A stretch of DNA of 64,000 nucleotides from positions 2,140,315-2,204,314 of the forward strand of contig CP037918.1 in assembly GCA_019356535.1 (NCBI GenBank), read 5' to 3'. A program made the translations under genes and the position numbers. The notes under the pieces were generated by a model. It saw only the letters and a list, made by a program, of their open reading frames with translations, made no database searches and was not told the origin of the DNA. Each line of letters starts with the position of its first letter. Positions within the stretch are counted from its first letter, which is position 1. Of the stretch, positions 17,994 to 20,491 are shown piece after piece. The DNA comes from Chromatiaceae bacterium. Lineage in GTDB: Bacteria > Pseudomonadota > Gammaproteobacteria > Chromatiales > Chromatiaceae.

Positions 17994-18587
17994 TCAGTCC
18001 GCAGCCGGCGTCTCCACCAGCCTGACCCGATAGCCGTGCGGACTTTCAGGATCGCGCAGGATATCGGCCATGCGCATGGGATAGCTCCCCGCCTCACGAT
18101 CGCGGAAATATTGCTCCAGCGCCAGGCGCACCGTGGCGAAGGCGAGCTGCTGCCAGGGCACCTCGGCCTCGGTGAACAGCGCCACTTCCTCGCTCTCCTC
18201 GCCGGGCGAAAACGCCTCGTCCAGCAGGCGCGCACGAAACAGCAGGTACACCTGGTCGATGTGCGGCAGGTTGACCGTGTAGTACAGATCTTCGATGGCG
18301 ACCCGTGCATTGGCCTCTTCCAGCGTCTCGCGCATCGCTCCTTCCCAGGTGGTCTCGCCATTCTCCATGAAGCCCGCTGGCACCGTCCACAAGCCGCGAC
18401 GCGGCTCGATGGCACGCCGGCAGAGCAGCACCCGATCCCCATGATGCACGATGCACCCGGCCACGATCTTGGGGTTGTGATAGTGGATGGTGCCGCAGGC
18501 GTCGCAGATATGACGTTCGCGGTTGTCGCCGGCGGGGATCCCCAGCCGCACCGGGTGACCGCAGTGACTGCAGAATCTCATCTTCAT
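17994..18587 (-). CDS. Nudix hydrolase with N-terminal zinc ribbon
   Basis: A 197-residue protein. The zinc ribbon has CSHCG near residue 5 and CDACG near residue 30. The Nudix box follows as G-N5-E-N7-RETLEEAN within FMENGETTWEGAMRETLEEA. The ribbon plus Nudix arrangement is common in NADH/ADP-ribose pyrophosphatase relatives, but the substrate cannot be read from the sequence. I chose the ATG at 18587. A longer frame would start inside the terminal repeat of the adjacent MITE-like element, whose end is 12 bp upstream of this ATG, so the native upstream control region has probably been replaced or displaced. Confidence 0.88.
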   Translation of the reverse strand: MKMRFCSHCGHPVRLGIPAGDNRERHICDACGTIHYHNPKIVAGCIVHHGDRVLLCRRAIEPRRGLWTVPAGFMENGETTWEGAMRETLEEANARVAIEDLYYTVNLPHIDQVYLLFRARLLDEAFSPGEESEEVALFTEAEVPWQQLAFATVRLALEQYFRDREAGSYPMRMADILRDPESPHGYRVRLVETPAAD

Positions 18588-18599
18588 CGCGCCATCATA

Positions 18600-18860
18600 C
18601 TGAGACAACCCCAAGTAAAGCGACCCTCAGCGGGTCTCAGGGCGTTCAGCCACAAGGCGCGCTGGCGCAGGCAGGTGATTCCATGTCAAGCCAGCGCAAC
18701 ACCGTGGATGGACGCCCTGAGGCCCGCCCACGGGGAGCGCCCTGCCTGTCCCGGCTCTGTGTTGCGGCCCTTGCCAAGGGCCTGCCATTGCCTGCGGGCC
18801 GCGCCTTGATCCGGAACAGGCAGAGCGCTCTGAGCGTTGCTTTACTTGGGGTTGTCTCAG
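18600..18860. mobile_element. MITE-like non-autonomous element with TA target duplication
   Basis: A 261-bp non-coding segment with perfect 22-bp terminal inverted repeats at 18600-18621 and 18839-18860, starting CTGAGACAACCCC. The repeats extend imperfectly for about ten more bases, where CTCAG recurs on both sides. Both ends are flanked by TA (18598-18599 and 18861-18862), as expected for IS630/Tc1-mariner-type insertion. No transposase frame is present, so it would need to be mobilised in trans. It fills most of the gap between the Nudix gene and ppx. Confidence 0.88.
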
Positions 18861-18988
18861 TAACGCCAATATCGCCGCCAGCCATCCATTCCGGCAGCGT
18901 GCACGCAGACACCCAAAAGCGGTAGCATTGCCGAGGACCTCCGGACCGCCGGGCCGGGGTTTTCCCAAATGCAGGAAACCGATCCAAC

Positions 18989-20491
18989 ATGAGCGACCCA
19001 GCCAGCGCTTCGCCGCAGACCTACGCCGCCATCGACCTGGGCTCCAACAGCTTTCACATGGTGGTCGGACGACAGGACGGCGACCGCCTGGTACTGGTGG
19101 ACCGCCTGCGCGACCCGGTACGCCTCGGTGAGGGCCTGCTGCCCGACAAGACCCTGGACCCCCACGTGGCCAAGCGCGCCCTCGCCTGCCTGGAGCGCTT
19201 TGGCCAGCGCCTCCGCGACCTCCCACCCGAAGCGGTGCGCGCGGTCGGCACCAACACCATGCGCCAGATCGCCGACGATGGCGCCTTCCTGCGCGCCGCC
19301 GAACTGGCGTTGGGACACCCCATCGAGATCATCTCCGGCGACGAGGAGGCTCGCCTGATCTACCTGGGCGTGGCGCATGGCCTGGCCGCAGGCAACGAAC
19401 ACCGTCTGGTGATCGACATCGGCGGTGGCAGCACCGAACTGATCCTCGGCCGCGGCATGGAGCCCGGCCGCCGCGACAGCCTGTACATGGGCTGCGTGAG
19501 CATGAGCCAGCTCATGTTCAGCGACGGCCGCATCACCGACGACGCCATGAACTCTGCCCTGCTGCGCGCCGCGCTGGAGATCCGCCCGGTGCGCCACTTC
19601 TACCAAGCCGGCAACTGGGAAAGCGTGGTGGGCAGTTCGGGGACCATCCGTTCCATTCGTGCGGTAGTCAAGGCCAACGGCTGGAGCAGCGAGGGCATCA
19701 CCGCCGAAAGCCTGCGCAAGCTGCGCAAGAAGCTGCTCAAGGCCGGGCACATCGACAAGGTCCAGCTCGACGGCCTGTCCGAGGACCGACGACCGGTGTT
19801 CGCTGGTGGCGTCGCCGTGCTCTCCGCCCTATTCGAACGGCTCGGCATCGACCGCCTGCGGGTATCCGACATGGCCCTGCGCGAGGGCCTGCTCTACGAG
19901 ATGATGGGCTATGTCCGGCACCAGGACATCTGCCAACGCACCGTGGATTCCCTGGGCACCCGTTTCGGCATCGACCGTGCACAAGCACAGCGCGTACAGG
20001 CCACCGCCCGTTCGCTGCTCGAACAGGTCGCACGCCCGTGGGGGCTGGACATCACCGAATGCGGACGCATGCTCGCCTGGGCCTGCCAGCTGCACGAGAT
20101 CGGCTTGAGCATCTCACACGCCGGCTTCCACAAGCACGGCGCCTACATCCTGGCCAATGCCGACCTGCCGGGTTTCTCGCGCCAGCAGCAGGCGGTGCTT
20201 GCCGCGCTGGTGCGTAACCATCGCCGCAAGTTCAGCGAGTCGGCCTTCCGCAACCTGCCCGAACACCTGATCGAACCAACCCGCCGCCTGTGTGTACTGC
20301 TGCGCCTCGCGGTACTCATGCATCGGGGGCGCTCATCGGACAGCAAGCCCATGCTCTCCCTGGAGGTTTCCGGCCACAAGATCCGCGTCAGCTTTCCCGA
20401 AGGCTGGCTGGATCGCCACCCGCTGACCCGCGCCGAACTGGAGCGCGAGGCCGACTACCTCGCCCGGGCAGACTTCAAGCTCCGGTTCTGA
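18989..20491 (+). CDS. ppx: Ppx/GppA family exopolyphosphatase
   Basis: A 500-residue enzyme that removes terminal phosphate from polyphosphate (or from pppGpp in the GppA branch). The ASKHA fold shows phosphate-1 motif YAAIDLGSNSFHMVVGR (about 12-28), AVGTNTMR, SGDEEARLIYLG and the second phosphate loop VIDIGGGSTELILG (about 145-158). A C-terminal HD-like helical domain follows (about 315-480). The length fits Ppx of gammaproteobacteria. A modest AGGAAA lies upstream of the ATG. The first base of the next ATG is the last base of this stop. Confidence 0.95.
   Translation: MSDPASASPQTYAAIDLGSNSFHMVVGRQDGDRLVLVDRLRDPVRLGEGLLPDKTLDPHVAKRALACLERFGQRLRDLPPEAVRAVGTNTMRQIADDGAFLRAAELALGHPIEIISGDEEARLIYLGVAHGLAAGNEHRLVIDIGGGSTELILGRGMEPGRRDSLYMGCVSMSQLMFSDGRITDDAMNSALLRAALEIRPVRHFYQAGNWESVVGSSGTIRSIRAVVKANGWSSEGITAESLRKLRKKLLKAGHIDKVQLDGLSEDRRPVFAGGVAVLSALFERLGIDRLRVSDMALREGLLYEMMGYVRHQDICQRTVDSLGTRFGIDRAQAQRVQATARSLLEQVARPWGLDITECGRMLAWACQLHEIGLSISHAGFHKHGAYILANADLPGFSRQQQAVLAALVRNHRRKFSESAFRNLPEHLIEPTRRLCVLLRLAVLMHRGRSSDSKPMLSLEVSGHKIRVSFPEGWLDRHPLTRAELEREADYLARADFKLRF

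Follow-up and report, generated by a model that had tools for sequence, protein, structure and literature searches.

A mobile 261-bp MITE with a double-hairpin core common to elements with different transposon ends

A 261-bp element in the window (by which we mean the whole 64-kb stretch of DNA that was analysed) is a mobile, non-autonomous MITE which duplicates TA at its insertion site. We consider it probable that this is a miniature non-autonomous DNA transposon, moved in trans and carrying a conserved folded core of 207 nt. The MITE itself is ordinary in kind; the conserved core, common to different transposon ends, is not. The wide recurrence of this folded interior inside different transposon ends suggests that the fold itself does something, its function being putative.

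The element, its copies and its empty site

The insertion site lies between the divergent Nudix and ppx/gppA genes. The features are listed below, with strands where they apply; arm scores refer to R1, a covariance model of one arm which was built from 16 arms, the window's own among them.

17994..18587, minus strand: Nudix hydrolase gene (Zn_ribbon_Nudix and NUDIX, domain search), ATG 12 bp from the element
18598..18599: left TA, target-site copy (comparison with the empty site in the same-genus genome G005)
18598..18630: left half of the terminal stem of about 33 bp, with a conserved CAG at its end (folds; equal length and other sequences in about 30 other lineages)
18600..18860: non-autonomous MITE, 261 bp (copies at 81-97% identity in its own genome and in G005; empty site)
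18600..18621, plus strand: left terminal inverted repeat, 22 bp, perfect (computed inverted-repeat search)
18627..18729, plus strand: core arm 1, hairpin (R1, 92.5 bits, covariance-model search)
18727..18736: core centre CCC-ACGG-GGA, a short inter-arm hairpin (CCC-NNNN-GG in nearly all relatives)
18733..18833, minus strand: core arm 2, hairpin, homologous to arm 1 and inverted (94.5 bits, covariance-model search and arm alignment)
18830..18862: right half of the terminal stem (folds and comparison with other lineages)
18839..18860, minus strand: right terminal inverted repeat, 22 bp, perfect (computed inverted-repeat search)
18861..18862: right TA, target-site copy (comparison with the empty site)
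18989..20491, plus strand: Ppx/GppA phosphatase gene (domain search), start 128 bp past the element's last base

Direct reading and computation confirmed the outline given in the original prediction, namely a length of 261 bp, perfect 22-bp ends and TA on both sides. The terminal repeat, CTGAGACAACCCCAAGTAAAGC, is perfect over 22 bp and then continues imperfectly (one matched position, one mismatch, two matched, one mismatch, five matched) to about position 31, close to the predicted imperfect extension of about 32 bp. In the 64-kb window, the ends of the element are the sole pair of inverted 20-mers at a spacing of 150-400 bp; exact end matches occur only at these two ends, and no second copy was found there, in agreement with the earlier statement. 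The protein-like frames inside the element are only spurious short or overlapping ones, which bears out the absence of coding capacity, and the distance between the left end and the start codon of the Nudix gene (ATG at 18587, minus strand) is indeed 12 bp. From this distance it had been concluded that the insertion reshaped the 5' region of the Nudix gene; the position stands, but the argument is only positional. A search of the element and its vicinity gave no sigma-70-like promoter. Two terminator-like sites are located at the element's ends.

The element's own genome (2,745,378 bp, one contig) contains 10 full or long partial matches, in addition to fragments. The full copies form two identity classes (94-97% and 81-83%), and the intact ones lie between two TAs in otherwise unrelated surroundings. 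Many copies are also present in G005, whose Nudix protein is 99% identical to that of the window. At the window's site, G005 (L081) is empty and reads GCCATCA-TA-ACCCCGATT, with one TA (its sequence there is also given as GCCATCA-TA-ACCCCGATTTCG), versus GCCATCA-TA-(261-bp element)-TA-ACGCCAATATCG at the occupied site, the flanking DNA of the two being about 89-95% identical. The element is absent at this site in G007 and five further relatives as well. Because the empty site in G005 has a single TA, the TA duplication is demonstrated at the window's site, the one insertion site covered by this comparison.

Both the further copies and the empty TA in a relative, which the original prediction had proposed to look for, were found, and the outcome that it had named as adverse, i.e. 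a single-copy sequence with no empty site in relatives, is contradicted by the roughly ten copies and by G005. An immobile palindrome, ancestral or arisen by chance and present only once, thus has a practically negligible probability: nothing was found in its favour, the sequence is multi-copy, which in itself excludes a single-copy palindrome, and it has both an empty site and TA on either side. A conserved RNA inside the element had likewise been named as evidence against mobility; a conserved covarying fold is indeed present (see below), but mobility is not refuted by it. With the window's element as query, the plasmid collection returned no matches. One own-genome copy (L040:441-760, around 608845) is two-arm-like, with very different ends (TTGGTCCGGC(C/A)ACCCAATGTTTG) and a good score for one arm only.

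The double-hairpin core and its distribution

The core of about 207 nt consists of two inverted homologous hairpins of about 100 nt each, with the inter-arm turn CCC-NNNN-GG between them and the terminal stem around them, so that each of the two single strands can adopt a Y-shaped fold. The fold is much more stable than those of shuffled sequences (z of -11.8 and -13.3 for RNA of the two strands and -11.1 for DNA), none of 200 shuffles being as good. Its pairing covaries: 19 of the 28 pairs in 16 aligned arms show compensatory double changes, and across 139 distinct arms standard pairs fill 97.0% of the pair cells (63.4% when shuffled), with a covariation score of 0.867 versus 0.215 for shuffled and 0.10-0.16 for slid partners, the figures for the 139 arms coming from related sequences in an alignment fitted to model R1. 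The arms also retain loop motifs, CAAGGC and AACGC among them. Nearly all of the 34 elements measured have a core length of 206-212 nt and the CCC-NNNN-GG centre, and their terminal stems of about 32-35 bp mostly start with TA and end with CAG, with sequences that differ between lineages. Constant core length, architecture and loop motifs, together with covarying stems and a differing terminal stem, point to selection on the folded strand.

The mismatches in the arms also have a direction. When arms are read from the end inward, G.T outnumbers A.C by 143 to 18 among the 77 arms below 85% identity (more G.T in 61 of them, more A.C in 3), part of which may come from the way the arms were collected, as model R1 itself favours G.T. 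The excess persists with stricter thinning and when three recurrent wobble columns are removed. Since in a duplex a G.T in the hairpin of one strand is an A.C in that of the other, the bias points to one selected folded strand per arm and, for the two arms, to selection on opposite strands.

A known RNA family was rejected, as two Rfam searches gave no match at gathering score; a permissive search returned chance-level matches only, mostly to miRNA hairpin models. In the openly available papers that our literature search covered, we found no description of the core fold or of these ends.

The window's two arms have all the features by which we define the two-arm family: inverted R1 arms, a CCC-NNNN-GG turn and a closing terminal stem. 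They are also the only R1 matches in the 64-kb window at E<=1e-4. At the same threshold, 32 of the 57 host-family genomes contain R1 matches, with up to 68 in one genome; at E<=1e-6 they were found in 37 of 299 genomes of the phylum. Of these 37, 22 belong to the host's class and 15 do not; the 14 genomes of family f51 carry no class name here. BLAST gave interior-only matches in distant genomes, which show the same architecture when folded and have other terminal stems. Nearly all R1 matches whose flanks were examined are two-arm elements, and a single arm as an autonomous half-element was therefore rejected, as nearly all such candidates became two-arm elements once their flanks were folded. 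BLAST searches with two-arm elements further produced matches at unannotated places in plasmids and other replicons of Vibrio, Pseudoalteromonas, Azotobacter, Pseudomonas and Halomonas.

Several observations concern individual genomes. A plasmid of P. aeruginosa PA83 (NZ_CP017294.1, L225:4001-4267) carries an unannotated two-arm element with IS5/ISPa67-type ends, situated between acyl-CoA dehydrogenase and CoA-transferase genes. Copies in G385 (L210-L212) have a well conserved first arm and a second arm that is seemingly replaced or altered. Many arm matches in G058, G072, G077 and G019 lie less than 200 bases from a contig end, as if short-read assembly broke in the palindromes, and draft genomes will undercount arms because of such breaks.

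Transposon ends, candidate transposases and alternative explanations

The original prediction had assigned the element to IS630/Tc1-mariner-type transposition. This is not established, because a search of 8 genomes of the genus gave no IS630-type (DDE_3) transposase above cut-off and because IS630-type and IS5-type elements both can sit at TA. No observation went against the earlier statement that the window lacks a transposase, and the genome-wide Pfam searches produced only one IS5/IS4-type relic, which lies outside the window. This relic (L242:1501-1728; C1:2278412-2278639) has an internal stop and is the sole DDE_Tnp_1 match in the own genome, and no matching ends were found near it. We searched for the parent both by DDE_3 and DDE_Tnp_1 profiles and by scanning 210 family genomes for the end pattern, which is meaningful only in G000, G005 and G007. 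Matches in G169 and G225 were dismissed, as L192 shows the pattern by coincidence within other sequence and L193 is a single decayed end; L193 is the locus of L091, the sole match in the named genome collection. An IS1182 adjoining an Azotobacter copy was rejected as a parent, as its ends do not match. The parent transposase whose search had been recommended was thus not recovered, in that neither the own genome, nor the genus, nor the 210 family genomes yielded a transposase with ends TACTGAGACAACCC. For this reason we can only infer that the element moves by a transposase supplied in trans, now absent from the genome or unrecognised in it, which would be of the IS630 or the IS5 type.

The ends of other two-arm elements resemble those of both types. 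In Azotobacter, Pseudomonas and Halomonas replicons they are CTAGGG(T/C)CTGTTGACG, near-identical to those of complete IS5 elements in Aeromonas and Raoultella plasmids (249-aa DDE_Tnp_1 with DUF4096; ends CTAGGGGCTGTTGACGTTT and CTAGGGTCTGTTGCCGTTT, with inverted copies opposite), none of which match the window's element. In G064 the two-arm ends are TAGTGGGCCATGCGG, one base off those of an IS630 element in G027 (TAGTGGGTCATGCG; L170, 365-aa DDE_3), a match that is shorter than the IS5 one and lies in different genera. At L182:1354-2535, G027 has an IS630-type element with perfect 20-bp ends, TAGTGTAGTGTCCTGAATAT, whose first ten bases are those of the two-arm ends in G048. There are also elements in G019 which have ends TAGTACTCCGTCAAGG and quite different palindromes inside. 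Three MITE-like sequences of that genome (L146:2346-2537, L148:1731-1925 and L149:2979-3305) combine two-arm-type ends, CTAGTACTCCGTCAAGG, with other palindromic interiors (ACCGCAGAGGACGCAGAG and onwards), and one of them carries a nested GTAGGAGCGGCTTTAGCCGCGA palindrome. Because the same core occurs with different ends, and in G019 the same ends occur with different interiors, ends and cores appear to be partly exchangeable, or else ends evolve fast on a constant core, as far as such sequence comparisons can tell.

How, then, might the element be explained? Under the reading that we prefer, a miniature transposon moved in trans with a conserved folded core, a TA-targeting DDE transposase of the IS630 or IS5 type would have bound the 22-bp ends and moved the element, which inserted at a TA between the Nudix and ppx/gppA genes and duplicated it. 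The fold would have a role either in mobility or as RNA. On one hand, it may aid the spread of the element, e.g. by exposing ends or hairpins to the transposase or to a host factor in single-stranded DNA at replication forks. On the other hand, it may yield a structured RNA that makes insertions next to genes tolerable. A narrower reading, that of an IS630/Tc1-mariner MITE in the strict sense, i.e. an internally deleted IS630 element with a decayed remnant interior, is a serious candidate on which we remain doubtful. The TA duplication speaks for it, and so does the one-base difference between the G027 and G064 ends, G027 being of the same family; against it stand the lack of DDE_3 in the genus, the IS5 ends of other two-arm elements and an interior which is not decayed coding sequence and whose fold is conserved across genera and classes. 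We regard as rather unlikely that the element is a MITE of the IS5 family (ISPa67/IS427-like), moved by a DDE_Tnp_1 transposase, an enzyme which likewise duplicates TA. It is true that the Azotobacter, Pseudomonas and Halomonas ends resemble those of complete IS5 elements and that the own genome retains one DDE_Tnp_1 relic, but this relic has no matching ends nearby and the window's end, TACTGAGACAACCCC, is unlike the IS5 ends found.

A different kind of explanation is that of a structured regulatory RNA, or a processing or termination element, spread by transposons and kept by the host (as a bidirectional terminator or an mRNA stabiliser, for instance). The very stable fold on both strands, its covariation, the excess of G.T over A.C when each arm is read in one of its directions and the two terminator-like sites at the ends would all be in line with it. 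We find it improbable nonetheless, as there is no Rfam match, copy number and flanks vary among close relatives in the manner of a selfish element, and the arms prefer opposite strands, which one through-transcript cannot satisfy; this preference fits better with a symmetric role at both ends. Returning to the preferred reading of a trans-mobilised element with a folded core, we would tentatively extend it: the double hairpin might be a portable "passenger core" of DNA or RNA, in which selection acts on the folded single strand and favours the two halves on opposite strands. Such a core would have travelled through two proteobacterial classes enclosed by the ends of two or more unrelated transposase families (IS5-type and IS630-type), and would not be a by-product of one IS.

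Significance and comparison with known systems

MITE interiors are commonly regarded as meaningless filler. Here, the fold of one such interior keeps its length, loops and pairing across very diverged genomes while the ends change, and if it is selected, it would offer a handle on the ways in which elements without genes vie for transposases and survive. The two-arm family is moreover a large unannotated repeat family that annotation pipelines have missed, and its repeats seem to break short-read assemblies.

Among known systems, the MITEs of Thiomargarita (PMC4853749) were rejected as a match, since their repeats are 10-bp or TATAG ones and not TA. The IS630 family (DDE_3) has the TA target in common with the element and, in G027, ends resembling the G064 two-arm ends, whereas the window's own ends have no IS630 match and no transposase of this family scored above cut-off in the genus. 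ISPa67-like members of IS5 (DDE_Tnp_1 with DUF4096) have ends near (C)TAGGGTCTGTTGACGTTT, common to the Azotobacter, Pseudomonas and Halomonas two-arm elements; the window's end sequence is different, and no intact copy was found in the own genome. The R0, R2 and R200 repeats of Pseudomonas fluorescens (PMC2718517) also lie between genes, and for some of them movement in trans through ends in common with an IS has been suggested; R200 is 320 bp long. The likeness is one of description. REP/BIME palindromes likewise are paired inverted hairpins between genes, but the hairpins of the present pair measure about 100 nt each and are closed off by a terminal stem that comes with TA duplication. Bacterial MITEs such as Chunjie and QMITE2 (PMC10969869) are short, gene-less and multi-copy, with inverted-repeat ends, target duplication and hairpin folding of the whole element, and all of these traits are found in the window's element too. 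Those MITEs, however, are described per species and, according to that review, are typically AT-rich, whereas in this case a GC-rich core of two hairpins occurs in many genera of two classes, within different ends.
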